Made by a program: the position numbers and the translations under genes
Assembly: GCA_017744365.1 (NCBI GenBank)
Contig: JAGIBL010000002.1
Location: forward strand, 1 to 64,000
Origin: Nocardioidaceae bacterium
GTDB lineage: Bacteria; Actinomycetota; Actinomycetes; Propionibacteriales; Nocardioidaceae
Length of the DNA: 64,000 nt
Reading direction: 5' to 3'
Part shown: positions 44,229 through 62,137 of the stretch, piece by piece
Numbering within the stretch: position 1 is the stretch's first letter
Layout: every line of letters begins with the position of its first letter
The notes under the pieces: generated by a model
Databases searched by the model: none
Told to the model about the DNA's origin: nothing
Seen by the model: the letters and a program-made list of their open reading frames with translations, nothing else

Positions 44229-44233
44229 GACGC

Positions 44234-45071: not shown

Positions 45072-45096
45072 GTGTATGTAATCAGATTACATACAC
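45072..45096. promoter_or_regulatory. TetR operator, site 1 (perfect 25-bp palindrome)
   Basis: GTGTATGTAATC-A-GATTACATACAC: twelve-base arms pair perfectly around a central A. It lies between the alpha/beta-hydrolase start and the end of the tetR gene, in strikingly AT-rich sequence. Its core TGTAATC-N-GATTACA recurs at 54743 and 60771. Confidence 0.85.
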
Positions 45097-45119
45097 CGGC
45101 GCGTGCTGACCAGGGTTCG

Positions 45120-45839
45120 CTACGTGCGCTTTCTCGCGGGCGTCTTCTTCGCCGGAGCCTTCTTCGCCGCGGCCTTCTTGGCCGGCGCCTTCGCCGGGCC
45201 GGCGAGCCGCGCTCGCACCATGTCCTTGAACGACGCCAGCGACTTCTCGACCTCACGCCGGTCCGCGGTGATGAGCAGGTCACCCATGAGACCACGCACG
45301 GTCGCCAGCACCAGCCGCGCGACGGCGTCGGCCTCGGCCCCGCTCAGCTGACCGTCCAGGCTGCGCCGGAAGTAGTGCACCCACTGGCCGACCGCGGTGC
45401 TCGAGAACTCCTGGAACTTGTCCGGCTCCTCGAAGCTGCGGGAGGTGAGGTGGAAGAAGAACTGCATGTCGGTCGGGTTCGCCGTGTAGTGGCCCCACCA
45501 CCGGTCGATCGCGTCCGTGATGGTGCCGACCGGCTCGCTCTCGAGCTGGGTGACGATGTCGTCCCGCAGCGCGTGCACGATCCGGCCGAGCAGCTCGTCC
45601 TTGCCGCCGAAGTAGTAGACGAGCATCCGGCTGCTGGTGCCGAGCCGAGGCGCCAGGTTGTCCAGGGAGAACCCGGCGAGCCCCTGCTCCCGGACGATCT
45701 CGATGATCTGGCCGAGCAGCACCTCGGCCTTCACGTTGTTGGCCTGCGCCCGCGCCGGCGCCTTGTCGGCGGAGGCTGAGCGCGGCTTCCGGGCCCGCGG
45801 AGCCGTCGCGGCGCCCTTCTTCGCGTCCTTGTTCAGCAT
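45120..45839 (-). CDS. TetR-family regulator with lysine-rich tail
   Basis: A 239-residue regulator. A basic N-terminal extension (about 35 residues) precedes the helix-turn-helix (SLDNLAPRLGTSSRMLVYYFGG), then an all-helical ligand domain, and finally a tail of repeated Lys/Ala/Pro (KAPAKKAAAKKAPAKKTPAR), as in histone-H1-like proteins. It overlaps the end of the M20 gene and so lies at the end of the operon begun at 54707. It is the best candidate to bind the TGTAATC-N-GATTACA palindromes. Confidence 0.9.
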   Translation of the reverse strand: MLNKDAKKGAATAPRARKPRSASADKAPARAQANNVKAEVLLGQIIEIVREQGLAGFSLDNLAPRLGTSSRMLVYYFGGKDELLGRIVHALRDDIVTQLESEPVGTITDAIDRWWGHYTANPTDMQFFFHLTSRSFEEPDKFQEFSSTAVGQWVHYFRRSLDGQLSGAEADAVARLVLATVRGLMGDLLITADRREVEKSLASFKDMVRARLAGPAKAPAKKAAAKKAPAKKTPARKRT

Positions 45840-47005
45840 TCCGTCCCGTCCGTCACCTGGTTGAGCCGCCGGATCGCCAGCTCCGACAGCAGGCTAGTGA
45901 TGTCCGGGACGACCGAGTCGTCGAACCGCGCTTCGGGCGAGTGATTTGTGGGCAGCTGGTTGGGTTCGCCCGGTAGCGCCGCACCGACCAGCACGAAGGC
46001 GCCGCCGGTCTCGTCGAGGAAGAGCGAGAAGTCCTCCGAGATCATCTCCGGCACCACCAGCTCGGAGAACCGGTCCTCCCCGAACAGGTCCGTGACGGTC
46101 CCCCGGACCAGCGCGGCGCCGCTCGCGTCGGCCACCGTCGGCCCGAGGTCGGGCCCGACCTGCGACCGCAGCTCGAGCCCGAAGCCCTGGGCGATCGACT
46201 GGGCGATGCCGCGGATCTTCTCGAAGGCGGCGTGCGTGGTCGCGCTGCTGGTGGCGCGCAGGCTCACCTTGAGCAGCGCACGGTTCGGGATCACGTTCGC
46301 GGCGGTGCCGGCCTCGATCGCGCCGACGGTGACCACGATCGGGTCGCTCGGCGAGCTGTTCTGCGCCACGAACGTCTGGATCGCCTGGACCACCAGCGCG
46401 GCCGTCGAGACCGGGTCCAGCGCGGTGTGCGGCCGCGCGGCGTGACCACCGCGGCCGACCAGCTCCAGCTCGAACAGCATCGCCGCGCCCATCACCTCGC
46501 CCTCGCGGCAGAAGAACGTGCCGGCGGGTGCGTAGGACAGCACGTGCACGCCGTACGACGCCAGCGGACGCTGCCCGGTGACCAGGTGCGCCTTCTCCTC
46601 GATCATCAGCTCGGCGCCGCCGGCCCCCTCCTCCCCCGGCTGGAAGACGGCGAGCACGCTGCCGCGGAACTCCGCACGTCGCCGGCTCAGCTCGTGCACC
46701 GCGCCGACCAGGCCGGCCATGTGCAGGTCGTGCCCGCAGGCGTGCATGGCGCCGTTCTCCGAGCTGAACGGCTCCCCCGAGGCCTCCACCACCGGCAGGC
46801 CGTCCATGTCCGCGCGCAGCAGCACCGTCGGTCCGGGACCGGCACCGGGGATCACCACCGAGACCGACGAGCACCGGTCGCTGGTGTGCGTCTCCAGGTC
46901 GAGTGGTGCCAGCGCGTCCAGGACCGCCTGGCGCGTGCGGGGAAGGTCGAGCGCCAGCTCGGGCATGCGGTGCAGGGCGCGGCGGAGCTCGATCAGGTCG
47001 ATCAC
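45833..47005 (-). CDS. M20-family amidohydrolase (amino-acylase/peptidase D type)
   Basis: A 390-residue zinc enzyme. The metal segments are ACGHDLHMAGL and EEGAGGAELMI; the dimerisation domain with GRGGHAARPHTALDP and the terminal NHSPEARFDD are typical of indole-acetyl-amino-acid/N-acyl hydrolases. It removes an acyl group from an amino acid or amide. GTG 47005 overlaps the ATPase stop. It follows the oligopeptide-type transporter genes and may act on the imported compound. Confidence 0.92.
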   Translation of the reverse strand: MIDLIELRRALHRMPELALDLPRTRQAVLDALAPLDLETHTSDRCSSVSVVIPGAGPGPTVLLRADMDGLPVVEASGEPFSSENGAMHACGHDLHMAGLVGAVHELSRRRAEFRGSVLAVFQPGEEGAGGAELMIEEKAHLVTGQRPLASYGVHVLSYAPAGTFFCREGEVMGAAMLFELELVGRGGHAARPHTALDPVSTAALVVQAIQTFVAQNSSPSDPIVVTVGAIEAGTAANVIPNRALLKVSLRATSSATTHAAFEKIRGIAQSIAQGFGLELRSQVGPDLGPTVADASGAALVRGTVTDLFGEDRFSELVVPEMISEDFSLFLDETGGAFVLVGAALPGEPNQLPTNHSPEARFDDSVVPDITSLLSELAIRRLNQVTDGTEC

Positions 47006-47928
47006 GGTGTGCCTGCTTTCTGGGGTGAGTCGGCCGCCGTGCAGGCGGCATGGTGGTGAGGACCGATCTCGTGGAGTCCGGGTCCGTGCTCCGCGCACGG
47101 GCCGGGGACCGGGCACGAGGTGATGACGAGGAAGCCGTCGGCGTCGCGGGGCAGGTCGATGACGCCGTCCCAGGGCACCCGCGGGTCGGCGATCGGGACG
47201 GCCGAGATCAGCGCCTGGGTGTAGGGGTGCACCGGGTCGGCGAGCACCGCGGCGGCCGGGCCGCTCTCGACGACGAGGCCGCGGTACATCACCGCGATGT
47301 GCGTGGCCAGCCGGCGGACGCTGGAGATGTCGTGGGTGATCATCAGGTAGCCGACCCCGGTTCGCTTCTGCAGGTCGGCCAGCAGCGCGAGGATCCGGCC
47401 GCGGACGGTCTGGTCCAGGCTGGCGGTCGGCTCGTCGAGGATGACCACCTCGGGGTCGGAGACCACCGCCCGCGCGATCGCGACGCGCTGGGCCTGCCCG
47501 CCGGAGACCTGCCGGGGGTACCGGTCCAGGATCTCCTCGGCCAGCCCCACCTGCGCGACGATCTCGCGGGCGCGCCGGTCGGCCTCCTCCTCGCCCACGC
47601 CCAGGTGCCGCAGCGGCTCCGCGATGCTGCGGCGGATCCGCCAGCTCGGATCCAGCGACTGCACGGGGTGCTGGAAGACCATCTGCACCCGCTGCCCGGT
47701 GCCCGCCTCCGCCCGGTCCTCTCCCGACGGGCGCCAGGAGATGGTGCCGCTGGTGGCGCGCTGCAGCCCGGCGGCGACCTTCGCGATCGTGGTCTTGCCG
47801 CTGCCGGACTCTCCCACCACGGCCAGCGTCTCGCCACGGCGCACGTGCAAGGTCACCCCGCGCACCGCGTGGTTGCGGCGGGCCCGGGATCCGTAGACCA
47901 CCTCGATGTCAGCGAGCACGAGCTCCAT
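47002..47928 (-). CDS. Oligopeptide-type ABC transporter ATPase, DppF-like
   Basis: A 308-residue ATPase with Walker A VGESGSGKTT, signature [14 protein letters not shown], Walker B VVILDEPTASLDQ and an oligo_HPY C-terminal extension (VLADPVHPYTQALISAVP). Oligo_HPY extensions identify peptide/nickel-type importers. It overlaps the DppD-like gene by 20 bp. Confidence 0.92.
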   Translation of the reverse strand: MELVLADIEVVYGSRARRNHAVRGVTLHVRRGETLAVVGESGSGKTTIAKVAAGLQRATSGTISWRPSGEDRAEAGTGQRVQMVFQHPVQSLDPSWRIRRSIAEPLRHLGVGEEEADRRAREIVAQVGLAEEILDRYPRQVSGGQAQRVAIARAVVSDPEVVILDEPTASLDQTVRGRILALLADLQKRTGVGYLMITHDISSVRRLATHIAVMYRGLVVESGPAAAVLADPVHPYTQALISAVPIADPRVPWDGVIDLPRDADGFLVITSCPVPGPCAEHGPGLHEIGPHHHAACTAADSPQKAGTP

Positions 47929-48730
47929 CGGTCACCCCCTCGGCCGGCCGGACGTCGCCCGCTGCTGCGAGCAGCTCGCGGGTGTAGGGGTCCCGCGGGC
48001 GGTGGAACACGTCGTCCACGCCGGCGAACTCGCGCAGGTCGCCGTGGAGCATCACCGCCACCCGCTGGCACATCTGCGCGATCACGCCCATGTCGTGGGA
48101 GACGAACAGGACGCCGATCCCGTGCTCGGCCACGGTGGTCCGGATCAGCTGCAGGATCTGCGCCTGCACGGTCACGTCCAGGCCGGTGGTCGGCTCGTCG
48201 GCGATGAGCAGGCTCGGCCGCAGCGAGATCGCCATCGCGATCATCACCCGCTGGTTCATGCCGCCGGAGAGCTGGTGCGGGAAGCGGCCCAGCACGTTCT
48301 CGGGGTTGCTGATGCCGACCGAGCGGAGCAGCTCGACGGCGCGGCTCCGGCGCGCCCTCCGGTCGCTCCCCCGGCCGGCCGACCGGTCCAGGAAGCGGAG
48401 CAGCCGGTCGATCTGGGCGCCGATCCTCGCGGTGGGGTTCAGCGCCGCGGTCGGGTTCTGGAAGATCATCGAGGCGTTCGGCCGCCGCAGCATCCGCGGG
48501 CCGTCGAGGAAGCGAACCCCGTCCAGCGAGGCCTCGCCGCCAGTGACGGCGACGCCGCTCGGGAGAAGCCCGAGCAGGGAGAGCGCGGTCATCGTCTTGC
48601 CCGACCCCGACTCGCCGACGATGCCGACGACCTCGCCGGGGCCGACCTCGAGGTCCAGGTCGCGCACCAGCTCGACACCGGCGTCGGTGCCGATGCTCAG
48701 GCCGCGCACGCTCAGCAAGGGGGTCGTCAC
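47909..48730 (-). CDS. Oligopeptide-type ABC transporter ATPase, DppD-like
   Basis: A 273-residue ATPase. Walker A VGESGSGKTMTALSLLG, signature LSGGMNQRVMIAMA and Walker B LLIADEPTTGLDVTVQAQI are typical of DppD/OppD. The C-terminal oligo_HPY part is present in short form. GTG 48730 overlaps the DppC-like stop. Confidence 0.92.
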   Translation of the reverse strand: MTTPLLSVRGLSIGTDAGVELVRDLDLEVGPGEVVGIVGESGSGKTMTALSLLGLLPSGVAVTGGEASLDGVRFLDGPRMLRRPNASMIFQNPTAALNPTARIGAQIDRLLRFLDRSAGRGSDRRARRSRAVELLRSVGISNPENVLGRFPHQLSGGMNQRVMIAMAISLRPSLLIADEPTTGLDVTVQAQILQLIRTTVAEHGIGVLFVSHDMGVIAQMCQRVAVMLHGDLREFAGVDDVFHRPRDPYTRELLAAAGDVRPAEGVTDGARAR

Positions 48731-49575
48731 TGGAGCCTCCGGTCGAGCCAGTCGCCGATCACCTGGAAGGCCGCCGCGGTGAGCAGGATCATCAGGCCGG
48801 GGAAGAAGGACGGCCACCAGGCCCCGAGCAGGTTGTCGCCGACGCCATCGGCGATCATCGCTCCCCACTCGGCGTGCGGGGGCTGCACGCCGACGCCGAG
48901 GAACGAGAGCGCCGCGAAGTCGAGGATCGCCCAGGAAGCCACCAGGGTGGACTGGACGAACGGGTACTTGAACGAGTTCGGGAGCACGTGCTGGAAGGCG
49001 ATCTGCCGTGGCCGGGCGCCGCTGAGCCGGGCGGCGGCGATGTAGTCGGCGGCCCGGACCTCCAGCGCCTTCGAGCGGGTCAGCCGGACCAGCAGCGGGA
49101 TGAAGGCGATCACCACCGCGATGGCGGCGTACCAGGGGTCCTTGCCCAGCGAGGCGGCGATGACCAGCGCCAGCACCACCCCGGGGAAGGCCAGGAACAC
49201 GTCGGTCAGGCGCATGATGACCGCGTCGGTGGCGCCGCCGAAGGTCGCGCTCACCGACCCGATCAGCGAGCCGAGCACGAGCGCGGAGGCCGCCACGGCG
49301 AGCCCGAGCAGGATGTCGACGCGGGCTCCGGCCATGCAGCGCAGGAACACGTCGCGGCCGTAGTGGTCGGTGCCGAACGGGTGCCGCAGCGACGGTGAGA
49401 GCAGGCTCGGGTACTGCTGGGCCACGTTGCTGCTACCCGCGACCAGGGGCACGACCAGGCCGAGGAGCAGCAGCAGGACGAGCACGCCCATGGCCGCGAT
49501 CGCGGTCTTGTTGCCGGCGCGGAACCGGCTGGTCAGGGTGATGCGGAACCCGCTCGCGGTGTCGACGATCGCCAT
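48727..49575 (-). CDS. Oligopeptide-type ABC transporter permease, DppC-like
   Basis: A 282-residue permease with N-terminal OppC_N-like part (RFRAGNKTAIAAMGVLVLLLL) and HPFGTDHYGRDVFLRCMAGAR, the hallmark of DppC-type subunits. The EAA loop is around DYIAAARLSGARPRQIAFQH. One base separates it from the DppB-like stop region. Confidence 0.93.
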   Translation of the reverse strand: MAIVDTASGFRITLTSRFRAGNKTAIAAMGVLVLLLLLGLVVPLVAGSSNVAQQYPSLLSPSLRHPFGTDHYGRDVFLRCMAGARVDILLGLAVAASALVLGSLIGSVSATFGGATDAVIMRLTDVFLAFPGVVLALVIAASLGKDPWYAAIAVVIAFIPLLVRLTRSKALEVRAADYIAAARLSGARPRQIAFQHVLPNSFKYPFVQSTLVASWAILDFAALSFLGVGVQPPHAEWGAMIADGVGDNLLGAWWPSFFPGLMILLTAAAFQVIGDWLDRRLQ

Positions 49576-49576
49576 C

Positions 49577-50599
49577 TCAGCGCGCCTCCGCCAGGTTCAC
49601 GCGCGGATCGGCCCAGCTGTAGAGGAACTCCAGCGCGGTGTTGATGAGCACGTAGACGACTCCGATGACGATGACGTACCCGCGTAGCGCGTACAGGTCG
49701 TTGTTGGCCAGCGAGGCGTAGGCGTAGCCGCCGATGCCCGGCCAGGCGAAGAGCTGCTCGACGATCACGTCGCCACCGGCGAGCACGAAGCCGGCGACCA
49801 GGCCGACGTTGGTGATGACCGGCAGCAGCGAGTTGCGCAGCCCGTCGCGGAACAGGATCGACGTCCGGGAGTAGCCGAACGAGCGCGAGGTCCGGGCATA
49901 GTCCGACTCCAGGGCCTTGATGGTCGCCGACCGCACGATCTTGACCACCGAGGCCGAGGCCAGCCCGCCGAGGAGCAGCGCCGGCAGCAGCAGCGACCGA
50001 AGAGCGGCGCCGGCCGTGCCGAGGTCGCCGTGCAGCAGCGCGTCCACCACGTAGAACCCGGTGATGTCACCGGGCGGGCTGTACCCCCGGGGCAGCCGGC
50101 CGGTCGGGCTGTTGAAGACACCCAGGTCGTTGACCAGCGTGGTGATCGCGACCAGGGCGATCCAGAACACCGCCGTCGCGGTGGCCAGCACCACGTAGAC
50201 CTGGACCAGCCGGTCGACGAGCCGGTCCCGGTAGATCGCCGCCGCGACCCCGAGACCGACGCCGAGGACCACCGCGATCAGCAGCGCGGTGAGGCCGAGC
50301 TCGAGGGTGGCCGAGAACCGGCTCGTGATCTCCTCGCGCACCGGCTGGTCGTTGCGGACCGAGGAGCCGAGGTCGAGGTGGGCCAGGTCGCCCAGGTAGT
50401 GCGCGAACTGGGCCGGGACCGGATCGTCCAGTCCGTACCGCTCGCGTATCTGGGCGACCTGGTCCTCGGTCGCGTACTGGCCGGCCGCGATCCTGGCGGG
50501 GTCACCGGGAAGCAGCTGGGTGATGAAGAACGTCAGCACCGCCACCCCCAGGATGCTCAGGAGCGCGACACCGAGTCGCTTGCCGACCGTTCGGAGCAC
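49577..50599 (-). CDS. Oligopeptide-type ABC transporter permease, DppB-like
   Basis: A 340-residue permease. The first helix (LLSILGVAVLTFFITQLLPG) and PGDPARIAAGQYATEDQ are characteristic of DppB/OppB. The EAA loop (ESDYARTSRSFGYSRTSILF) is conserved. Seven bases separate it from the binding-protein gene. Confidence 0.93.
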   Translation of the reverse strand: MLRTVGKRLGVALLSILGVAVLTFFITQLLPGDPARIAAGQYATEDQVAQIRERYGLDDPVPAQFAHYLGDLAHLDLGSSVRNDQPVREEITSRFSATLELGLTALLIAVVLGVGLGVAAAIYRDRLVDRLVQVYVVLATATAVFWIALVAITTLVNDLGVFNSPTGRLPRGYSPPGDITGFYVVDALLHGDLGTAGAALRSLLLPALLLGGLASASVVKIVRSATIKALESDYARTSRSFGYSRTSILFRDGLRNSLLPVITNVGLVAGFVLAGGDVIVEQLFAWPGIGGYAYASLANNDLYALRGYVIVIGVVYVLINTALEFLYSWADPRVNLAEAR

Positions 50600-50606
50600 G
50601 TCGTAC

Positions 50607-52223
50607 CTACTTGGTGACGCGGAGCTGCTCGAAGCGCAGGTTCGCGTCGTTGGAGTGGGTGATGCCCTCGACCCCCTTGCGGGCGCCGACCAGGTAGTCC
50701 TGGGTGTAGAGGAACGCCCACGGCGCCTGGTCGATGATGATCTGCTGCGCCTGCTGGGACAGCTCGTGCCTTTCGGCGGTGTCGGTCGTCGCCATCGCCC
50801 GCTTCACCAGGTCGTCGACCTCGGCGTTGCTGAAGTTGGTGTAGTTGGTGAACGTGCCGGTCGTGAGCAGGAAGAACATCTGGTAGACCGAGTCCTGGCC
50901 CCACGAGTACCAGGTGTCCAGGTACATCTGCATCTTGCCGAGGTTGGCGTTGTAGTCGGCATCGGACATCTTGTTGATCTTGACGTTCACGCCGCCCTTC
51001 TTCAGCGCGCTCTGGATGAACACGGCGTCCTCGCTCAGCGTGGTGTCGCTGGCCGGCACCGAGAGGGTGAGCGAGAGGTTCTCGTGCCCGGCCTCGGCGA
51101 GCAGCTGCTCGGCCTTCGCCACGTCGGTCGGGTACGCGACCTTGTCGCCGGTCTCGTCCAGGGAGTCCTGCATCGGGTAGGGCACGGCACCGTACGCCGC
51201 TCCGGCGAAGCCGTTCATCACGTCGCTGCGCAGCGCGTCGTACGGCATCAGGTAGGAGAGCGCCTGGCGGACCTTGACGTCCTTGAGGGCCGGGTCGTTG
51301 TTGTTGAACCCGACGTACGCGATGGTGCTGTACTTCAGGTCGTACAGGTGCAGCTTGTCGTCCTTCTGCACCGCCTGGGCGATGTCCGGGGTGATGCCGT
51401 AGACCAGGTCGACCGCGCCGTTCTGCAGTGCCAGGAAGGCCTGCTGCGCGTCGGGCATGCTCTGCACGACCACCCGCGCGGGCGCGTCGCCGATGTCGGC
51501 GGCGGTGAAGTCGGGGTTCTTCTTGAGGGTCACGCTCTTGCCGGCGATCTGGCTCTCCACGACGTACGGGCCGGTCGGCGTCGCGTCGGTGGCCAGGAAC
51601 TTCGCGCCCCACGGGTCGTCCGCGCCGGCCGCGGCCTCCACCGCGGACTTGTCCAGGATCGCGAAGATCTGGAAGGCCAGCAGCTGCTCGATCAGTGGCG
51701 AGTAGTGGGTGACGCGCAGCTCGACGGTCCTGTCGTCGGTCGCCACGATCTGGGTCTTGGCGTCGGTGATGTTCAGCCACTGCCCGATCGCCTGCACGTA
51801 GCCGACGTCGGAGAGCGCCCGCTGCAGCGACCAGACCACGTCCTCGGAGGTCACCGGGTCGCCGTTGCCGAACTTCAGGCCGTCCTTGAGCACGAAGGTC
51901 AGCACCGTCTTGGCGGCGTTCCAGGTGGCCGACTCCGCGAGGTACGGCGCGCTCTGGCCGCTGTAGTCGAGGATGCCGTCCTTGCTGGCGTCGTACTTCT
52001 CCTGCAGCAGCGTGCCGTAGATGTTGCCGACCACGCCGTAGCCGGCGTCGCTCTTGAACTGGTGCGGGTCCAGGCTGTCCACCGTCTGGCTGTAGGCGAC
52101 GACCACCTCGTCGGCCGGCCCGCCGCCCCCGCCTCCGCCGCTGCTGCCGTTGCCGCAGGCGGCCGCGACGAGCAGTACGCCGGCGGCGAGGGTCGCGCCG
52201 AGCACCCGGCTCTTGTTCTTCAT
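50607..52223 (-). CDS. Oligopeptide-type ABC substrate-binding lipoprotein
   Basis: A 538-residue SBP_bac_5 receptor. The lipobox LVAAAC gives lipidated Cys at about residue 23, followed by a poly-glycine linker. Conserved segments are YSQTVDSLDPHQFKSDAGYG and VTSEDVVWSLQRA. Such receptors carry peptides, but also nickel, opines or other amides. ATG 52223 follows AGGAGAA. It heads the transporter part of the operon. Confidence 0.92.
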   Translation of the reverse strand: MKNKSRVLGATLAAGVLLVAAACGNGSSGGGGGGGPADEVVVAYSQTVDSLDPHQFKSDAGYGVVGNIYGTLLQEKYDASKDGILDYSGQSAPYLAESATWNAAKTVLTFVLKDGLKFGNGDPVTSEDVVWSLQRALSDVGYVQAIGQWLNITDAKTQIVATDDRTVELRVTHYSPLIEQLLAFQIFAILDKSAVEAAAGADDPWGAKFLATDATPTGPYVVESQIAGKSVTLKKNPDFTAADIGDAPARVVVQSMPDAQQAFLALQNGAVDLVYGITPDIAQAVQKDDKLHLYDLKYSTIAYVGFNNNDPALKDVKVRQALSYLMPYDALRSDVMNGFAGAAYGAVPYPMQDSLDETGDKVAYPTDVAKAEQLLAEAGHENLSLTLSVPASDTTLSEDAVFIQSALKKGGVNVKINKMSDADYNANLGKMQMYLDTWYSWGQDSVYQMFFLLTTGTFTNYTNFSNAEVDDLVKRAMATTDTAERHELSQQAQQIIIDQAPWAFLYTQDYLVGARKGVEGITHSNDANLRFEQLRVTK

Positions 52224-52242
52224 GGGTTCTCCTCGTTGTTGG

Positions 52243-53220
52243 TCAGCCGGCGTGCAGTGCCGAGCCGAGCTCCTGGATGTCCCCGAGAAGGGTGTCCGCG
52301 GAGATGGGCGCGAGCGCCACCTCGTCGGATCCCGCGTCGTGCAGGGCCTGGATCTGGGCGACGCAGGCGTCGACGTCACCGCAGACGCAGAGCTGGTCGA
52401 CCCACTTGTCGGGCATCTCGCTCACGAGTGCCTCCGGGCCGCCTCGGGCGACCAGGGCCCGCAGCTCCGCGGTGATGCCGAGCGCGTCGGTCATCGCGGC
52501 GCTCTCGCTGTCGGCCAGGTAGCCGCCGAGCAGCGGCCGGATCCGGGCCCGGGCCTCCTCCCGGGTCGGCGCCAGCGAGAGGAAGGCCAGCGTGGTGACC
52601 GGGGTGGCGGCGCCGCCGTGGGCGGCCATGATCTCCTTCTCGACCCGCACGAAGCTCGGGCTGCTGAACACCGAGAGCAGCAGCCCGTCGGAGATCTCGC
52701 CGGCGAGCGCGGTCATCTTCGGACCGGTGGCGCCGAGGTGCACCTCGGGCGGCGTCTCCGGGGCGAACTCGAGGTGAACGCCGTCGAAGGTGAAGCTGCC
52801 GAGCTCCTCGGACAGGGTCTGCCCGGCCCAGAGCGCACGCAGCGCCTCGACGGTGCCGCGGACCGCGCCGAGCGGCCGCCGGTGCTCGACGCCCTGCTGG
52901 TCGAGCCAGCCGAGGCCACCGGCGCCGATGCCGAGGGCGAACCGCCCCGGGTGCACCGCGGCGAGGGTACCGGCCTCCATCGCGAGCAGCGCGGGGTGCC
53001 GGGCGTAGACCGAGACCAGGCCGGTTCCGACCTGGATGCGCTCGGTGGCGGCGAGGACGGTGGCGGCGCCGGCGAACCCACCGGTGGCGAAGTAGTCCTC
53101 GGTCGACCAGACCCCGGAGAACCCGCCGGCCTCGACCGCGCGGGCCACCTCGACGAGCCGGCTGGGGTGGAAGGTGCTGCCGAGCACGTAGCTGACCCGG
53201 CCGCCGGTGGACTCGCTCAT
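52243..53220 (-). CDS. LLM-class F420/FMN-dependent oxidoreductase
   Basis: A 325-residue luciferase-like monooxygenase TIM barrel. GGFSGVWSTEDYF, LVSVYARHPALLAMEAGTLA and GRFALGIGAG are typical; HLGATGPKMTALAGEISDG is the cofactor-side loop. Actinobacterial members use F420 or FMN. RutA of pyrimidine degradation belongs to the same superfamily, which fits a role in oxidative ring opening here, though that is inference. It overlaps the DUF1028 gene. Confidence 0.9.
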   Translation of the reverse strand: MSESTGGRVSYVLGSTFHPSRLVEVARAVEAGGFSGVWSTEDYFATGGFAGAATVLAATERIQVGTGLVSVYARHPALLAMEAGTLAAVHPGRFALGIGAGGLGWLDQQGVEHRRPLGAVRGTVEALRALWAGQTLSEELGSFTFDGVHLEFAPETPPEVHLGATGPKMTALAGEISDGLLLSVFSSPSFVRVEKEIMAAHGGAATPVTTLAFLSLAPTREEARARIRPLLGGYLADSESAAMTDALGITAELRALVARGGPEALVSEMPDKWVDQLCVCGDVDACVAQIQALHDAGSDEVALAPISADTLLGDIQELGSALHAG

Positions 53221-54140
53221 GCCGCTGCCCTCCGCAGGATCTCGCTGACGCCGTACGGCAGGGTGCCGATCTCGGCCAGCCCGTCGACGAAGCGGCTCAG
53301 CTCCGGCCGGGCGGCCAGCGCCTCGGCGATCTTCGCGCAGCCCTCGTCCTCGCGGCCGGCGCGGAGCAGCAGCACCCCCTGCCAGGCGGCCGGCTCCGGG
53401 TCGCCGCCGAGTGCCGCGCGGGTCTCGTCGAGCCCGGCGAGCGCCCGCTCCAGCTCGGCACCGGTGACCGGCACCTCGCCGGTGACCAGGCCCGGCGCGA
53501 AGACCGACTCGAAGAAGATCCCGTACGCACGGTGGGTGCGCAGTGCGTCGACGAGCCGGGCGATCGGGTCGGCGTCGAGGTCGATCCGCAGGTCCACGAG
53601 GGTGCCCTGCCACGGCTGCGCCGCGCGCTCCCCCGTGACCACCCGCAGGGCCGCGGACATCCGGCCCCGGGCGTCACCGCCGGCACGGTCGCCGGCGCTC
53701 AGGCCGGCCAGCAGGCGGTCGGCCAGGTCGCCCTCGGCCGCGTCGAAGCCCTCGACCATCGCCGGCAGCACGTCGTCGTTGGCGAGCATGTTGCCGATCG
53801 CGATCACCGAGCCACGCACGACGCTGCCGCAGGACGGCACGCACCTGCTCCCGGTGTGCTGGGCGATCACGCCGTGCACGTCGAGGTAGGCGACCTGCCG
53901 GATCTCCCGGTCCGCGTCCTGGGCGAGCAGCTGGTCCAGCGCCTGCGACGGGGAGGCACCGGCGTCGATCAGGTCCAGCCCGCGCGGCCCGTAGGAGACC
54001 TCGACGAAGGACTGGGTGGCGATGGCGGCGACGCCGGGCCGGGTGTGGTCGGCCAGGGGGCCGGCACCGAAGGCGTGCGTCGCGGTGGCCACCCCCAGCT
54101 GTCCGGTGGTGGCGTCGCGTGCCAGCAGCGAGAACGTCAT
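53217..54140 (-). CDS. DUF1028 domain protein (Ntn-hydrolase-like)
   Basis: A 307-residue protein starting MTFSLLARDATTGQLGVATA, the DUF1028 N-terminus, with GRGLDLIDAG-like and GRCVP/IGNMLAN segments of the family. Structures of relatives show an Ntn-hydrolase fold; members occur next to amidase, peptide transporter and hydantoin-type genes. The last 80 residues are an additional helical region with a peptidoglycan-binding-like flavour. Enzymatic activity is not established. Confidence 0.85.
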   Translation of the reverse strand: MTFSLLARDATTGQLGVATATHAFGAGPLADHTRPGVAAIATQSFVEVSYGPRGLDLIDAGASPSQALDQLLAQDADREIRQVAYLDVHGVIAQHTGSRCVPSCGSVVRGSVIAIGNMLANDDVLPAMVEGFDAAEGDLADRLLAGLSAGDRAGGDARGRMSAALRVVTGERAAQPWQGTLVDLRIDLDADPIARLVDALRTHRAYGIFFESVFAPGLVTGEVPVTGAELERALAGLDETRAALGGDPEPAAWQGVLLLRAGREDEGCAKIAEALAARPELSRFVDGLAEIGTLPYGVSEILRRAAA

Positions 54141-54152
54141 GGCCCGGCGGTC

Positions 54153-54707
54153 CTACTGCCCGGCGCCGGTGTAGTCGGTGCGAAGGCCACGCGAGTACGG
54201 CGTGCCGCCCAGCCCACGCCGGTCGGTGGCCTCCTCGCGGGTCTTCGACGGCGGCGCCTCGTCGTCGGCCGGCCGGGTGGAGCAGTGGAAGTGCCACATC
54301 CGCCACTCCGGGGCGCCGGTGCCGTCGTCGCGCTTGTAGATCTCGGTCGAGCGGTAGTACGCCGGCCGGTCCTCACGCTCGGGGAGCTGGTTGCCCTCGC
54401 GGTCACGGACCCGCCAGGCCGGGAAGTCGCCCTCGGAGACGACGTAGGCCATGTCGCCGCAGACGTCGAGGCGCATCACGTAGTCCTCGCACAGGCCCCA
54501 CTCGTCGGTGGCGGCGTAGTGGGACCAGAGCGCGGCCAGCTCGTCGACTCCGAAGTACGGGTGGTCGTTGAGGTTGAACATGAGGAACGTGTCGTCGCCC
54601 TTGGCGAAGACCGTCCGCATCAGCGGGATGTTGATCTGGAAGTTCGCGAAGTACCAGTCGCGGTGCAGGCGAAGGATCTGCTCTTCGTCAGCGGTCAGGG
54701 TGGGCAT
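54153..54707 (-). CDS. NTF2/SnoaL-like protein, copy 1
   Basis: A 184-residue protein with NTF2-fold features: an N-terminal helix (EEQILRLHRDWYFANFQ), central strands with NDHPYFGVDELAALW, and a tail containing WRMWHFHC. ATG 54707 is preferred over an in-frame start 33 bases upstream because AAGGAC lies in front and the operator would otherwise fall on the start. It is the first gene after operator site 2. A close paralogue begins near the right edge of the window. The role may be a small hydratase/isomerase or a ligand carrier. Confidence 0.82.
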   Translation of the reverse strand: MPTLTADEEQILRLHRDWYFANFQINIPLMRTVFAKGDDTFLMFNLNDHPYFGVDELAALWSHYAATDEWGLCEDYVMRLDVCGDMAYVVSEGDFPAWRVRDREGNQLPEREDRPAYYRSTEIYKRDDGTGAPEWRMWHFHCSTRPADDEAPPSKTREEATDRRGLGGTPYSRGLRTDYTGAGQ

Positions 54708-54742
54708 CCAGGTTCGTCCTTCGATCGTCGTCGCGGGCAACT

Positions 54743-54757
54743 TGTAATCAGATTACA
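54743..54757. promoter_or_regulatory. TetR operator, site 2
   Basis: TGTAATC-A-GATTACA, a perfect 15-bp palindrome; the right half continues as GATTACATAC, the same as site 1. It covers the stop codon of the MmgE/PrpD gene and lies 35 bp before the NTF2-like start, so it marks the promoter of the transporter operon. Confidence 0.8.
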
Positions 54758-56081
54758 TACTGGGGCGGCCGGTGAACAGACCCTCTGCCGAGTTCGTTCG
54801 GACGAGTGCCTCCGGCAGGGCGAGATCCGCCACGTCGGCGGTCTCGGCGACGCCGACGAGGGCGTCGAAGACCTCGCCGTCGCCGCCGAGGCGGACGAAC
54901 TTCTCGCGCAGAACCGGCCGGCCGACCGGGTCGGCGTGGTGGCCGCGCGGGTTGTCGACGCGCGCCTCGGCGACGCCCCTCCGGGTCCGGATCCGTACGA
55001 CGGCCGGTGCCGCCCCGGGCCAGAGCGCGTCCAGCGCGGGGTCGCTACGCACCGTCACCGATGCGGCCAGCCGGGCCACCTCGGGCCGCCAGTCCATGTG
55101 CCCGGGATCCGTGCCACCGTGGTGGATCCGGGCGGCGACCGCGTACGGCAGCGAGAACCGGGTGGAGAGCGCATTGGGCTCGGCGGTTCGGGCCACCCGG
55201 AGGTTGTTCGTCACGGTCACCACCTCGACCGCCTCGACGTCGCCGGGCTCGGCGTCCAGCTCGGACCACGCCTGCGCCGTGGCGTCCAGGGCGGTGTGGG
55301 TCAGCGCGCAGGCCGAGTGCAGCTTGAGGTAGTTGCGCCGGATCCTCAGGGTCCCGGGCCGGACCGGCTCGGCGAGGGTGCTCGCCACGGCGACGTAGGG
55401 CGCCACCACCGAGAGGTGCGAGGCGAGCGAGCCCCGGAAGCCGGACCGGTGCAGGACCAGCGCCTGCACGCCGCTCCGGTTGGCGTGGCCGGCCCAGGTG
55501 TTGCGGGCGGTCGCGCCCTCGTAGCAGGCCTCCCAGCCGGTGAGCAGGGACTGCGTCGCCGCGATCCGGGCAAGCGCGACCGGGTCGGCACCGGCGAGCA
55601 TCGCCACCGCCGTCGCCGCGCCGATGCCGCCGAAGTGCCCGTGCGGATGCATCGGCGCGGGCAGCACGAACGACTCGAAGAGACGTGCCGCGACCTCGTA
55701 GCCGGCGACCAGGGCGGTCAGCAGCGCGGTGCCGGCGGCGTGCTCGACCTCGGCCACGGCGAGCGCGGCGGGGAGCACGTGCACGGCCGGATGCCCGGTG
55801 GGACGGAACCCCTCGTCGAGCTCGAGGAAGGTGCCCGCGGTCCCGTTGACCCAGGCGGCCGTGGCCGGGTCGCCCCGTCCCGACCGGAGTCCCAGCACGG
55901 GGTCGCGGACCAGCGCGGTCACCTCCGGGGACCGCGCCCCGGCCCCGATCACGCCGATCGTGTCGGCCAGCACGAGAGCGGCGTGCTCACGCACGCCGTC
56001 GGGCAGGTCGGCCCACGTCAGCGCGGCCGCCTCGCGGATCCGCTCCTCCAGCAGCGCGGCCAGGTCCGGCCGGTCAGGCAT
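54753..56081 (-). CDS. MmgE/PrpD family protein
   Basis: A 442-residue protein of the 2-methylcitrate dehydratase/iminosuccinate epimerase family. LADTIGVIGAGARSPEV, the GTFLELDEGFRPTGHPAVHV segment and YLKLHSACALTHTALDA are typical. In cis-epoxysuccinate and iminodisuccinate degradation, PrpD relatives act as lyases or epimerases of amino-dicarboxylate derivatives. It overlaps the hydantoinase-like gene's end by 8 bp. Confidence 0.9.
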   Translation of the reverse strand: MPDRPDLAALLEERIREAAALTWADLPDGVREHAALVLADTIGVIGAGARSPEVTALVRDPVLGLRSGRGDPATAAWVNGTAGTFLELDEGFRPTGHPAVHVLPAALAVAEVEHAAGTALLTALVAGYEVAARLFESFVLPAPMHPHGHFGGIGAATAVAMLAGADPVALARIAATQSLLTGWEACYEGATARNTWAGHANRSGVQALVLHRSGFRGSLASHLSVVAPYVAVASTLAEPVRPGTLRIRRNYLKLHSACALTHTALDATAQAWSELDAEPGDVEAVEVVTVTNNLRVARTAEPNALSTRFSLPYAVAARIHHGGTDPGHMDWRPEVARLAASVTVRSDPALDALWPGAAPAVVRIRTRRGVAEARVDNPRGHHADPVGRPVLREKFVRLGGDGEVFDALVGVAETADVADLALPEALVRTNSAEGLFTGRPSM

Positions 56082-57480
56082 GCGTGCGCACCGGGTGCGA
56101 GGCCGCCACGAACCGGCCGCGGCGCTCGCCGACGGGCTCGCCGTCGCGCATCGCCACCGTCCCGCCGAGCAGGCTCGCCACGACGCGGCCGCGCAGGGTC
56201 CAGCCGTCCCAGGTCGTCACCGGGTTGAGCGCGTGCATCCGCTCGTTGGTCACCTCGGTCCTGCCTTCGGGGTCGACCAGGGTGAGGTCGGCGTCGGCCC
56301 CGGGCCGCAGGGTGCCCTTGCGCGGCCACAGGCCGTAGAGCCGGGCCGTCGACCCGGACAGGACCGAGGCCAGCCGCTGCGGGGTGATCCGCCCGCGCAC
56401 CATCCCGTCGACCATCAGCGGGGCCAGCGTCTCCACGCCGAGGCCGCCGGCGGGTGCGTCCTCGAACCCGCGCAGCTTCTCGGCCACCAGGTGCGGCGCG
56501 TGGTCGGAGCCGACCGAGCCGATGGTCCCGTCGGCCAGGCCCGCCCAGAGCGCGTCCTGGTCGGACTGCCCCCGCACCGGCGGGTAGACCTTGATCGCCG
56601 GGCCGAGCCGCTCGGCGTCCGCGTCGGTGAGGGTCAGGTACTGCGGGCAGGTCTCGGCGGTGACCGCGGCACCGGCCGCACGGGCCTCGCGGACCACCCG
56701 GGTGCCGGCCTCCGAGGCCATGTGCACGACGTGGAAGCGGCAGCCGGTGGCCAGCGAGAACTGCGCACCCACGGCGATCGAGGTGGCCTCGGCGACCGCC
56801 GGCCGGGCGAGCAGCAGGTCCTCGTAGGTGGTGATCGGGTGCCCGAGGCGCTCGGCCGAGGTGGCCAGCACGTGCCGGTCCTCGCAGTGCGCGGCCAGCA
56901 GCCCGCCGTACCGGGCGACCTCGCGGAACAGCTCGAGCACCTCGCCGTTCTCCGGCGGCAGCAGCAGCGAGTCCGGCGGCGCGGCGGCGAAGTTGTAGAT
57001 CAGCCCCTTGGTCTCGCGGTCCAGGGCGTAGCCCCAGAAGAACTTGACCGCGACCGCGCCCGCCTCGTGCATCGGCGCGATCTGGTGGAGGTTCGCCGGG
57101 CCCAGCGCCATCCCCCACAGGCCGAAGTCGGTCCAGGCCTTCTGCTCGTGCGCCGCGCGCCGCTCCTCGAAGGTGGCCAGGTCGGTCACCGCCGGCACCG
57201 CGTTGGGCATCTCCAGGACGGTCGTGGTCCCTCCGCACAGAGCGCCGAGCGTGGAGTGGTGGAACGTCTCCTTGTGGGTGTTCCCGGGGTCGCGCGAGTG
57301 GACGTGCGGGTCGATGAAACCGGGGAACACCAGCAGGCCGGAGGCGTCCACGCGCTCGTCCGCGGCAACCGCGGCGCCGCGGTCCAGCCACGCCTCCACC
57401 CGGCCGTCGGCGAGCAGCAGGTCGCAGTCCACGATCCCGTCCTCGGTGACCGCGCGGCCGTTCGCAACCAGGAGCCTCAT
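56074..57480 (-). CDS. Dihydropyrimidinase/hydantoinase/allantoinase-like amidohydrolase
   Basis: A 468-residue binuclear-metal amidohydrolase. H59 and H61 (DPHVHSRDPG), the probable carbamylated K146 (GAVAVKFFWGY), H198 (AAHCEDRH), a further His in FHVVHMASEAG and D326 (GSDHAPH) give a full site. It opens cyclic ureides or imides (hydantoin, dihydropyrimidine, allantoin). Directly coupled to the HyuC/AllC-like gene, the usual next step. Confidence 0.93.
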   Translation of the reverse strand: MRLLVANGRAVTEDGIVDCDLLLADGRVEAWLDRGAAVAADERVDASGLLVFPGFIDPHVHSRDPGNTHKETFHHSTLGALCGGTTTVLEMPNAVPAVTDLATFEERRAAHEQKAWTDFGLWGMALGPANLHQIAPMHEAGAVAVKFFWGYALDRETKGLIYNFAAAPPDSLLLPPENGEVLELFREVARYGGLLAAHCEDRHVLATSAERLGHPITTYEDLLLARPAVAEATSIAVGAQFSLATGCRFHVVHMASEAGTRVVREARAAGAAVTAETCPQYLTLTDADAERLGPAIKVYPPVRGQSDQDALWAGLADGTIGSVGSDHAPHLVAEKLRGFEDAPAGGLGVETLAPLMVDGMVRGRITPQRLASVLSGSTARLYGLWPRKGTLRPGADADLTLVDPEGRTEVTNERMHALNPVTTWDGWTLRGRVVASLLGGTVAMRDGEPVGERRGRFVAASHPVRTHA

Positions 57481-58766
57481 GCGGCACCTCCGGTGGTGGC
57501 GGACTCCGCGGCGAGCATCGCCGCCCGCGCGTCGAGCCGCAGCATCGAGGCGGCGAGCAGGTCGGTGCCGACGGCGAGCTGGGCCGGTTCGGTCCATTCC
57601 TCCGGGACGTGCGAGAGCCCGTGCCGGCTGGGCACGAAGATCATCGCGGTGGGCACCACCCTGTTGACCATCTGCGCGTCGTGGCTGGCGCCGGAGGTGA
57701 GCACCCGGTACGGCAGCGCCAGCTCGGTCGCGGCCGCGGTGACCTCGTTGCGGACCCAGTCGGGCAGCACCACCGCGGAGGTGTCGGCCAGCAGCCGTGC
57801 CTCCAGCCGGGTGCCGCGACGCAGACAGGCCGCCCGCAGTCGGGCCACGATCTCGGCGACGGCGAGCCGCTGCCGGTCGGCGTCGACGTCGCGTACGTCC
57901 AGCGAGAACGTCACCCGCCCGGGGATGGTGGTGATCGAGCCCGGCTCGACGACCATCCGGCCCACCGACGCGCGGGTGCCGCGGTGCCGCGGGTCCAGGG
58001 CGAGCCGCTCGGCGATGAGCACCGCCTCCGCCGCGGCCGCGAGTGCGTCGGCGCGCCCCCGCATGGGCGTGCCGCCGGTGTGCGAAGCCTGGCCGAGGAC
58101 GGTCAGCTCGATCCGCGTCGAGCCGGAGATCAGGTCGACCACGCCGACGTCGACGCGGGCGGTCTCCAGCACCGAGCCCTGCTCCACGTGCAGCTCGACG
58201 AACGCCGACCACTCCCCCGGGTCCCAGGCGGAGGCGGCCGCGCGGTCCGGGTCGATCCCGACCGACCGCATCGCGTCGGCCAGCGAGATCCCGTCCCGGT
58301 CGCGGCGCTCGTCCAGCTCGGCCCGCGCGGAGAGCCCGGCGGCGAGCTTGGACCCGCAGCAGGCCTGGCCGAAACGGGCGCCCTCCTCGGCGGCGAACGC
58401 GACGAACCGCAGCGGGAGCTCCGTCACCGTGCCGGACTCGTGCAGCAGCCGGGCGACCTCGACCGCCGCCATGGTGCCGGCGATGCCGTCGAACCGGCCG
58501 CCGTGGTAGACCGAGTCGAGGTGGCTGCCGGTGCCGACCGCGGGTCCGTCGTTCCGGCCCGGCCGGGTGGCGATGGTGTTGCCGGCGGAGTCGACCCGGA
58601 CCTCGCAGCCGGTATCGCTCATCCAGGCGGCGAACTGCTCGTGGGCAGCGCGCTCGAGCCGCGTGTAGGCGAGCCGGGTGACGCCGCCGCCGGGCTCGGA
58701 GAGCGCGGCCATCGTCTGCAGCGTCGACCAGAGCCGCTCGGGGTCGGCCTGCGGGAACGCGCTCAC
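57477..58766 (-). CDS. Zn-dependent N-carbamoyl/ureide amidohydrolase (HyuC/AllC-like)
   Basis: A 429-residue M20-family hydrolase. VGTGSHLDSVYHGGRFDG and FAAEEGARFG are the metal-binding segments, and FVELHVEQGSVLE is the family hallmark of L-N-carbamoylase, beta-ureidopropionase and allantoate amidohydrolase. It would remove the carbamoyl group after ring opening. Both ends overlap neighbours by 4 bp. Confidence 0.92.
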   Translation of the reverse strand: MSAFPQADPERLWSTLQTMAALSEPGGGVTRLAYTRLERAAHEQFAAWMSDTGCEVRVDSAGNTIATRPGRNDGPAVGTGSHLDSVYHGGRFDGIAGTMAAVEVARLLHESGTVTELPLRFVAFAAEEGARFGQACCGSKLAAGLSARAELDERRDRDGISLADAMRSVGIDPDRAAASAWDPGEWSAFVELHVEQGSVLETARVDVGVVDLISGSTRIELTVLGQASHTGGTPMRGRADALAAAAEAVLIAERLALDPRHRGTRASVGRMVVEPGSITTIPGRVTFSLDVRDVDADRQRLAVAEIVARLRAACLRRGTRLEARLLADTSAVVLPDWVRNEVTAAATELALPYRVLTSGASHDAQMVNRVVPTAMIFVPSRHGLSHVPEEWTEPAQLAVGTDLLAASMLRLDARAAMLAAESATTGGAA

Positions 58767-59347
58767 CGGGCCGACCGCCCGCGAGTCGCGACGTGCCGCA
58801 GCTCGTCGTCGGAGAACAGGGCGTTGAGCCGTGCGGCGGCGTGCTCGAGCAGCTCGGCGGCCCCCTGACCGCGGTCGACGGCGGCGAGCACCCCGACGAC
58901 GGTGGCGCCGGCCGCGCGCACCGCCCGGACCGCACCGGCCGCGGAGGCGCCGGTGCCGGTGACGCCCTCGACGACGAGCACCCGCTCACCGGCGTGCAGC
59001 TCGCCGAAGCAGCCCAGCTCGCCGGCGCCGGCGGCGGTCCTGGCCACCACCAGCGGCAGCCCCGTCTCCAGCGCGAGCGCGGCGCCGAGCACCAGCGAGT
59101 GCGGGTCCCGACCGAGCAGCCGGTCCACGTCCGGGGGGACGTGCGCGGCCAGGATCGCGGCCAGCCGGCGCAGCACCGTCGGCTTGGTGAGGAACTGGTC
59201 GGCGTCGATGAACTCGCCGTGGGTGCCCCAGGCCGCGGAGACGAGGTCGGCCAGGAGCTCCTGCTGGCGTACCTGCAACGGCTGGAACACCCCCAGGTCG
59301 CTCGACGCGAGCGCGGTCAGGAAGTCGGTCTGCGGTGCCGAGGTCAT
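58763..59347 (-). CDS. Orotate phosphoribosyltransferase-like protein
   Basis: A 194-residue type I PRTase-fold protein resembling PyrE: HGEFIDADQFLTKPTVLRRL, DRLLGRDPHSLVLGAALALE and GERVLVVEGVTGTGASA correspond to its elements. The PRPP loop normally reads VDDVxTTG; here the acidic pair is E-G. Its setting in an operon of ring-opening hydrolases suggests either salvage of a pyrimidine-like compound or a non-catalytic ligand sensor. Overlaps both neighbours. Confidence 0.8.
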   Translation of the reverse strand: MTSAPQTDFLTALASSDLGVFQPLQVRQQELLADLVSAAWGTHGEFIDADQFLTKPTVLRRLAAILAAHVPPDVDRLLGRDPHSLVLGAALALETGLPLVVARTAAGAGELGCFGELHAGERVLVVEGVTGTGASAAGAVRAVRAAGATVVGVLAAVDRGQGAAELLEHAAARLNALFSDDELRHVATRGRSAR

Positions 59348-60759
59348 CCGGCGGTCCTTTCGATCGGAGGGAGGATCCCCGCGGCCTCGGCGGCGCGCCA
59401 GAGGACGGCCACGGCGTCGGCGGCCTCGGCGACGACGTGGTCCTCGTCGACCGCGACGCACCGGCCGCGCTCGACGACCAGGCGACCGTCGACCAGGACC
59501 ACGTCCACGTCGGAGGGCCGGGCGTTCCAGACCAGGTTGCGCAGCGGGTCCCGCACCGGTTGCACGTGCGGGCCGCTGAGGTCGACCGCGACCAAGTCGG
59601 CCAGGCAGCCCGGCGCGATCCGGCCGAGCCGGGGGTCGAGGGCGGCGCCGCCGGTGGCGGTGGCCGCGGTGAGCAGCGTCGCGGCGTCGGCGCGGCCGCC
59701 GTCCCCGCTGGTCAGCTTGGAGACGAAGCCCGCCGCGCGCAGCTCGCCGAAGTGGTCGAAGCTGTAGGCGTCGGTGCCGATGCCGGTGCGGACGCCGGCG
59801 CGGTGGAACCGGTCGAAGGCGACGGTGACGCCGCTGCGGGCGAAGGTGAGCGGGCAGTGCGCGACGGTGGCGCCGGCCTCGCGGACCAGGTCCAGCTCGG
59901 CGTCCTCCAGGTAGACGCCGTGCGCCAGCACCAGCCGCGGCCCGAGCAGACCGGCCCGGTCCAGGTACTCCACCGGCCTGCACCCGTGCCGCTCCCGGAC
60001 GACCTCCACCTCGTGCCGACTCTGGGCCACGTGGATGGAGGCGAACGAGTCCCGTTCCTCGACCAGGGCCGCGATCCGGCGCAGCAGTGCGGGCGAGCAG
60101 GTGTCGGTGGCGTGCGGGCCGAACCCGACCCGGACCGAGCCGTCGCGGCCCTGGTCGTAGGCCTCGGCCAGCTCCAGCACGGCGGCCAGCGAGGCGTCCT
60201 CGTCGCCCGTCTCGTACGCCGGCCGACCGTCGGCGCCGACGCCGCGCGCCGGCGTCGAGAACACGTACGGCGCGGCGAAGACGCGCAGGCCCAGCTCGAC
60301 GGCGGCGTCGAGGAGCCAGCGGTGCTGGGCGCGTGGCATGTCCAGGACACTGGTGGTGCCGGAGCGAAGCAGCTCGAGCACGGCCAGCCGGTACACCGCG
60401 GCGAGCTGCTCGGGTGCGAGGACCGTGCCCGCCAGGTCACCGAGCGGGAGCAGCAGGCTGTAGACGATGTTGTCCGCACTGACGGTCCCGGCCGCGCCGA
60501 CGTCGTCGACGATCCCCCGGAAGACCGGTCCGTTGATCGCGTGGTTGTGCAGGTTCACGAACCCGGGCAGCAGCAGCGCGTCCGGCAGGTCGAGATGCGC
60601 GCAGCCCTCGGGCACGACCCGGCCCGCGACGACCTCGCGCACCAGGTTGCCCTCGACCAGCACGGTGACGTCCTCGGCCGCGCGCACTCCCCCGGTCGCC
60701 GAGGGCAGCAGCGTCCAGCGGGCGGTGATCGCGGAACGACGGGGACTCATCCGGGGCAT
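59344..60759 (-). CDS. Amidohydrolase, deaminase type (AtzA/SsnA/guanine deaminase group)
   Basis: A 471-residue mononuclear-metal amidohydrolase. H71 and H73 (FVNLHNHAINGP), GFGPHATDTCSP, SIHVAQSRHEVEVV and GIGTDAYSFDHFGELR form the active site of the deaminase/chlorohydrolase group. It should deaminate or dehalogenate a heterocycle. ATG 60759 begins ten bases from operator site 3; ATG 60750 is an alternative. It heads the minus operon of hydrolases. Confidence 0.9.
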   Translation of the reverse strand: MPRMSPRRSAITARWTLLPSATGGVRAAEDVTVLVEGNLVREVVAGRVVPEGCAHLDLPDALLLPGFVNLHNHAINGPVFRGIVDDVGAAGTVSADNIVYSLLLPLGDLAGTVLAPEQLAAVYRLAVLELLRSGTTSVLDMPRAQHRWLLDAAVELGLRVFAAPYVFSTPARGVGADGRPAYETGDEDASLAAVLELAEAYDQGRDGSVRVGFGPHATDTCSPALLRRIAALVEERDSFASIHVAQSRHEVEVVRERHGCRPVEYLDRAGLLGPRLVLAHGVYLEDAELDLVREAGATVAHCPLTFARSGVTVAFDRFHRAGVRTGIGTDAYSFDHFGELRAAGFVSKLTSGDGGRADAATLLTAATATGGAALDPRLGRIAPGCLADLVAVDLSGPHVQPVRDPLRNLVWNARPSDVDVVLVDGRLVVERGRCVAVDEDHVVAEAADAVAVLWRAAEAAGILPPIERTAG

Positions 60760-60769
60760 TGCCTCTCGT

Positions 60770-60786
60770 ATGTAATCGGATTACAT
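60770..60786. promoter_or_regulatory. TetR operator, site 3
   Basis: ATGTAATC-G-GATTACAT, a perfect 17-bp palindrome between two divergent genes, 10 bp from the minus-strand start and 74 bp from the plus-strand start. It would control both units at once. Confidence 0.8.
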
Positions 60787-62039: not shown

Positions 62040-62137
62040 CCCGGCCGGTCCAGGATCGCGATCGTCTCGGCGAACCCGTCGCGAGCATCCGCGGTCATGG
62101 CGTCGATCGCCTCGGACCGGCTCCTGCTGGTGGTCAC
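61763..62137 (-). pseudogene. Probable truncated gene, N-terminal remnant
   Basis: AGGAGG stands six bases before GTG 62137, which overlaps the stop of the upstream amidohydrolase gene by 4 bp, exactly as in the real operon junctions here. The first 33 residues look like protein (EAIDAMTADARDGFAETIAI), but the rest of the 124-codon frame runs antisense through the end of the convergent IadA-like gene and has shadow-like Ser/Arg composition. It is best read as the beginning of a gene whose remainder was lost when the IadA-like gene came to lie next to it. A short real protein is the alternative. Confidence 0.35.

Follow-up and report, generated by a model that had tools for sequence, protein, structure and literature searches.

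The TetR repressor acts on 15-bp palindromes (tetO), two of which lie between divergent genes, and SCO7222 of Streptomyces coelicolor has the operator TGGAACGNCGTTCCA, which occurs in several perfect copies (both according to the accessible part of PMC3511530). RutR of Escherichia coli represses a pyrimidine-degrading operon from a palindrome of about 16 bp and is released by uracil (accessible part of PMC10891134). Here we describe a putative regulon of this kind in a Nocardioidaceae bacterium. The window that we analysed is a stretch of 64,000 nucleotides (assembly GCA_017744365.1, contig JAGIBL010000002.1; C8:1-64000), which carries a gene cluster with a tetR gene and the palindrome TGTAATCAGATTACA. 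An earlier note on this DNA had reported three such palindromes and proposed a candidate TetR regulon. We conclude that the palindromes are very probably operators of the local TetR repressor, which is predicted to govern six transcription units, to regulate its own synthesis and to be released by an inducer.

The three palindromes of the earlier note lie where it had placed them, and they are perfect over 25, 15 and 17 bp (operators 1 to 3, Table 1). Its count has to be raised to five, as two more sites follow just to the right of the window, at 64111 and 64214. When we searched the window for TGTAATCNGATTACA with up to three mismatches, we found exactly three matches, all of them perfect, compared to an average of 0.06 in 100 dinucleotide shuffles. 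Across the 4.76-Mb genome, six places match with up to two mismatches, namely the five operators and a single place on another contig (C9:2974, two mismatches). The five strong sites are confined to 19.2 kb (45077-64228), and four of them are perfect palindromes. Furthermore, the half-site TGTAAT/ATTACA occurs ten times in 108 kb of this genome, and all ten copies are halves of the five operators. The exact motif was found in only one of 391 genomes of the order, which is this genome with its four copies; the exact pattern used for that scan would overlook variant sites such as the relatives carry. Sites scattered through the genome, which the earlier note had named as one of the results that would speak against a regulon, were looked for and not found. 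A chance origin of the palindromes is ruled out by the shuffle expectation, the genome-wide confinement and the rarity across the order.

The comparison of promoters in related genomes, which had been proposed as a further check, also agrees with a regulon. A search with the protein NTF2a among 394 genomes of the class gave matches in seven genomes: this one, four of the genus g76, which belongs to another family, and two distant ones. In the four g76 genomes (G430, G568, G534 and G607), the best NTF2a matches are 81-84% identical, and the block is complete, with its 20 genes in unchanged order and about 68-87% identical. Each of the five genomes, this one included, has the palindrome at the equivalent five places (25 of 25 sites), and no site beyond the five was found within five mismatches in the stretches that were read from the four relatives. 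Genome-wide, 20 of the 21 places in the relatives with at most one mismatch to TGTAATNNNATTACA are inside the cluster. The sites are hence confined to a single cluster, as in a dedicated regulon, in this genome (five of six places) as well as in its relatives. Three genes just to the right of the block in our genome were searched for in the 35 kb read per relative and not found, apart from a 25% alcohol-dehydrogenase match in G430.

The motif and the regulator are present or absent together. Within the genus g76, an orthologue of the local TetR is found in four of 12 genomes and the motif in those same four, and the other eight have neither. The four orthologues are 75-77% identical to the local protein; they are the only ones among 22 genomes of the relatives' family, and the local protein is the only one among 245 genomes of the window's own family. 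Class-wide, 65 of 394 genomes contain TetR homologues at E 1e-12, and identity is 35% at most for all but the five orthologues (75-100%). We inspected about 1.5 kb on each side of 25 of the 66 loci with such distant matches, where the best motif has four to six of the 12 positions wrong. As these 25 loci lack the motif, the operator seems to be particular to this orthologue group. In many genomes, the whole-genome protein searches scored the best few candidates of a first look (seven class-wide, eleven in the window's own family), and absences are strong rather than absolute.

The operators might instead belong to a regulator encoded elsewhere, with the local TetR having another target or none. 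Such a regulator would fit with the position of tetR, which is not divergent to a target gene, and with the coverage of our scan for DNA-binding domains, which included the 20 block genes and a few flanking genes. However, in all five genomes the sites keep to the cluster and co-occur with tetR, and a Pfam scan of the 20 block proteins found a DNA-binding domain in the tetR product alone. Furthermore, operator 1 holds the tetR stop codon TAA in all four relatives, and in our genome it starts about 30 bp past that stop. We thus consider a regulator elsewhere to be unlikely.

The tetR product itself belongs to the TetR family, with 27.6 bits for TetR_N (PF00440) compared to a gathering cut-off of 24, and the segment LGTSSRMLVYYFG of its recognition helix is invariant across the five orthologues. 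Its match to TetR_C_6 stays below the threshold (Pfam, 16.3 bits versus 27). The protein is assigned neither to BetI, its best NCBIfam match (TIGR03384, residues 31-209, 31.6 bits versus 201.3; NF001978, 25.4 versus 118), nor to RutR (NF011584, 20.4 bits versus 230; TIGR03613, 19.2 versus 368). We dropped the idea of guessing the inducer from solved TetR structures, where the protein has twelve weak matches, all to regulators that carry a generic name or a locus number. No plasmid-borne tetR was found at E 1e-20 among 72,556 plasmid records. Among named genome records there is at least one TetR-related locus, with a 28% identical protein from Variovorax. The local protein ends in a tail rich in lysine, alanine and proline (45120-45200), which is about 20 residues longer than in the four orthologues.

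The sites also suggest how binding would act on transcription. Twelve positions, TGTAAT...ATTACA, are invariant in all 25 sites of the five genomes. At 19 of the 20 one-way sites the centre base is a T in the direction of transcription, resulting in a TAnnnT hexamer, whereas the divergent site has no centre-base bias. This asymmetry is expected if TAATCT doubles as a -10 box, although the 20 one-way sites are related by descent and are thus not 20 independent cases. We conclude that the operator probably overlaps a -10 box of the TAnnnT type. In three of the four relatives, the final base of the 15-bp core is also the A of the ATG of the alpha/beta hydrolase gene, which places this start codon 12 bp behind the first T of TAATCT; the same spacing is reported for leaderless genes (accessible part of PMC3160421). 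In this genome, the distance from the core of operator 1 to the hydrolase ATG (45043) is 33 bp, and start codons in general lie 11-75 bp downstream of the operator cores.

As a second alternative, TetR could bind the sites and activate transcription, as is said of the TetR-family protein AtrA and its divergent neighbour (accessible part of PMC3511530). Both the distance of the cores from the start codons and the hexamer at nearly all one-way sites are better suited to steric blocking, and we regard activation as quite improbable; as it shares its regulator with repression, the two are not strictly exclusive. That the palindromes are terminators, repeats or recombination sites has a negligible chance of being right: four of the five sites here are perfect palindromes, operator 2 overlaps a gene end and operator 1 of the relatives includes the tetR stop codon, but the arms are A/T-rich around a one-base centre with no T run behind, no strong copies exist elsewhere in the genome, and the fixed positions in front of genes at five matching places in five genomes led us to reject this explanation.

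We therefore return to repression by the local TetR, for which we propose the following mechanism from the sequence comparisons. Without inducer, a TetR dimer would occupy each of the five operators and RNA polymerase would be blocked at six promoters, which are those of the alpha/beta hydrolase gene, the ten-gene operon from NTF2a to tetR, the two divergent amidohydrolase units, NTF2b with its amidohydrolase, and the serine hydrolase gene. As the operator is predicted to overlap the -10 box, binding would compete directly with the polymerase. A substrate or intermediate of the pathway would release TetR; it is probably a cyclic, amide-bearing nitrogen compound that is imported by the Opp-type transporter. 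The ten-gene operon has operator 2 at its front and tetR as its final gene, so that the repressor would be autoregulated, with negative feedback on its synthesis via an operator about 9 kb upstream of tetR.

Several observations weigh against this interpretation. Besides this genome, the presence and absence of motif and regulator could be compared in one lineage (four genomes of one genus). The divergent site follows the TAnnnT rule in two of ten directed views, and the serine hydrolase site of this genome reads TAATTC and breaks it. The -35 region is weak: with spacers of 16-19 bp, the best agreement with TTGACA is four of six letters, reached in six of 30 promoter views. For instance, NTF2a has TAGTCA 17 bp upstream in the four relatives (four of six) and TGTTCA here (three of six). 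Furthermore, no operator immediately precedes tetR, so that autoregulation depends on transcription through the ten-gene operon. A single-sequence model of TetR has nine helices and no strands, and its mean predicted local distance difference test score (pLDDT) is a poor 53.6. The coverage of the DNA-binding domain scan, given above, belongs here as well.

Table 1. Genes and operators of the putative TetR regulon (positions as in the window, continued beyond its right edge where indicated).
Feature	Position	Strand	Basis	Remark
alpha/beta hydrolase	44234..45043	-	Pfam	unit behind operator 1
Operator 1	45072..45096	.		perfect 25-bp palindrome around TGTAATCAGATTACA; conserved in 4/4 relatives
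tetR, 239 aa, proposed repressor	45120..45839	-	TetR_N helix-turn-helix, residues 47-86
M20-family amidohydrolase	45833..47005	-	Pfam	3' end overlaps tetR start
Opp-type ABC ATPase 1	47002..47928	-	Pfam ABC_tran, oligo_HPY
ABC ATPase 2	47909..48730	-	Pfam	GTG start
ABC permease, OppC-like	48727..49575	-	Pfam
ABC permease, OppB-like by position	49577..50599	-	Pfam BPD_transp_1
family-5 solute-binding protein	50607..52223	-	Pfam SBP_bac_5
luciferase-like (LLM) oxidoreductase	52243..53220	-	Pfam, NCBIfam	F420-type models below cut-off
DUF1028 protein	53217..54140	-	Pfam PF06267
NTF2a, SnoaL-like	54153..54707	-	below Pfam cut-off	heads operon ending in tetR
Operator 2	54743..54757	.		perfect 15-bp palindrome TGTAATCAGATTACA; conserved in 4/4 relatives
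MmgE/PrpD-family protein	54753..56081	-	Pfam	last gene of leftward unit from operator 3
hydantoinase/allantoinase-type cyclic amidohydrolase	56074..57480	-	NCBIfam (all below cut-off), PDB sequence matches
hydantoinase/carbamoylase-family amidase, allantoate amidohydrolase type	57477..58766	-	NCBIfam NF006771, TIGR01879 above cut-off
phosphoribosyltransferase-like protein	58763..59347	-	Pfam below cut-off; PyrE-like NCBIfam below cut-off
TRZ/ATZ-type amidohydrolase	59344..60759	-		first gene leftward from operator 3
Operator 3	60770..60786	.		perfect 17-bp palindrome around TGTAATCGGATTACA; conserved in 4/4 relatives
isoaspartyl-dipeptidase-like amidohydrolase	60861..62039	+		rightward from operator 3
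8-oxoguanine deaminase/TRZ-type amidohydrolase	62134..63492	-		unit behind operator 4
NTF2b	63533..64000 in window, gene reaching 64081	-		cut by window edge
Operator 4	64110-64126			outside window (C8:64111, exact match); precedes NTF2b and deaminase-type amidohydrolase
Operator 5	64214-64228			outside window (C8:64214, 1 mismatch); precedes serine hydrolase, oppositely oriented
serine hydrolase, beta-lactamase fold	64251-65360	+		outside window; behind operator 5

The 20 genes between 44.2 and 65.4 kb fall into six predicted transcription units (Table 1). Operator 1 is located between tetR and the alpha/beta hydrolase gene. The stop codon of the MmgE/PrpD gene falls into operator 2, behind which NTF2a follows with its ATG at 54707. 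The operon that operator 2 heads had been described as NTF2/DUF1028/LLM/Opp/M20/tetR, which we can refine to ten genes in the order NTF2a, DUF1028, LLM, solute-binding protein, two permeases, two ATPases, M20 and tetR. Neighbouring genes of this tight operon overlap or are separated by about 20 bp at most. Operator 3 is flanked by the two divergent amidohydrolase genes, and its leftward unit comprises the TRZ/ATZ amidohydrolase, the phosphoribosyltransferase-like protein, the carbamoylase-type amidase, the hydantoinase/allantoinase-type enzyme and MmgE/PrpD. The units named in the earlier note are thus part of the putative regulon, which in addition extends as far as about 65.4 kb, taking in NTF2b with its amidohydrolase as well as the serine hydrolase. 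The claim that the sites account for all transcription starts between 44 and 62 kb is consistent with the gene layout, where each gene found belongs to a unit headed by a site; the starts themselves are predicted.

Operators 4 and 5 are spaced 103 bp in this genome. The corresponding operators between NTF2b and the serine hydrolase gene are 48 bp apart in the four relatives (e.g. L023:6305-6367), and in three of these a perfect inverted repeat, GGCACC-TCT-GGTGCC, lies between them. The NTF2b unit of G430 (L023:8352-11514) has extra genes for an M20 and a hydantoinase-type amidohydrolase as well as an LLM-like tblastn match, which are missing here; the other three relatives have matches to the M20, hydantoinase-type and LLM families at the corresponding place. 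In the flanks of G430, the only relative scanned in this way (seven proteins), an AsnC-type regulator is encoded next to a large oxidoreductase gene, beyond the conserved block. At the other end of the cluster, the gene of a small membrane-like protein (43851-44237, GtrA-like match below threshold) runs into the end of the alpha/beta hydrolase gene, and the two may be co-transcribed. Beyond the cluster, genes at L007:10404-13486 resemble by eye a BMP-family nucleoside ABC transporter, which we take to be perhaps another purine-related locus.

Judging from its gene content, the cluster probably breaks down a nitrogen-containing compound. A more far-reaching idea, which we put forward tentatively and hold to be rather less probable than its opposite, is that the regulon delimits a complete pathway, not described so far, for the catabolism of a cyclic nitrogen compound, that the repressor senses the ring compound, and that operator and -10 box are fused in one 15-bp word. 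The pathway would consist of Opp-type uptake, TRZ-type deaminases, ring opening by hydantoinase and carbamoylase, the LLM oxidoreductase, two NTF2-like proteins, DUF1028 and MmgE/PrpD. In the relatives, the tetR stop codon would be part of the same 15-bp word, as would the start codon of the next gene in three of four. A distant four-gene relative, with LLM, NTF2, alpha/beta hydrolase and DUF1028, is found in two genomes of a third family (L031:8514-11749 and L032:7258-10485, in G424 and G402); these four genes are perhaps the core of the pathway. No site within five mismatches of the 17-bp consensus was found in the 20 kb read in each of these two genomes. The patchy distribution of the cluster suggests that it arrived horizontally in this genome, with loss elsewhere as the alternative.

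The operator provides a boundary, defined by sequence, to a cluster that includes families of undefined function (DUF1028 and the NTF2-like pair, both members of which stay below the Pfam cut-off). As the operator is common to the genes of the cluster, these genes are expected to act together. Release of the repressor from the 15-bp operator would be a direct assay for finding the substrate of the cluster. Furthermore, hardly any of the related genomes searched contains this pair of operator and repressor, which could thus serve as an orthogonal switch.

In the PMC literature, we found neither the operator letters, in several forms, nor a paper on DUF1028 together with amidohydrolase, LLM class and TetR, nor one on hydantoinase with Nocardioides. 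The half-site letters occur, among the matches listed, mostly in papers on DNA nanostructures, and in a paper on the TetR protein brpT they appear in primers only (accessible part of PMC5207742). The operator is thus new to print as far as this literature was searched, and the type of control is that of an ordinary local TetR regulon.

Compared to the systems described at the outset, the locus is predicted to resemble tetR/tetA in its dimeric TetR-family repressor, 15-bp promoter palindromes and release by a small molecule, and like tetO it has two operators between divergent genes (64111 and 64214). It differs from tetR/tetA in that the repressor gene comes at the end of a long catabolic operon and about 20 genes would be served by five operators; none of these genes encodes a tetA-like pump, and the operator letters are different. 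The SCO7222 operator is likewise a 15-bp palindrome of 7 + 1 + 7 bases in multiple perfect copies; however, its half-site differs, and its three copies share one intergenic region in the accessible description, whereas the copies here are spread over the cluster. The best NCBIfam match of the local TetR, although far below the cut-off, is to BetI, a choline-responsive TetR repressor, but no choline-use gene was recognised by Pfam among the 20 block genes. The match to the RutR model (NF011584) is weak, far below the cut-off, and covers the N-terminal part of the protein. In E. coli, carAB is a further target of RutR, and there are RutR boxes at other places (accessible part of PMC10891134), whereas the sites of the regulon described here are confined to its cluster.

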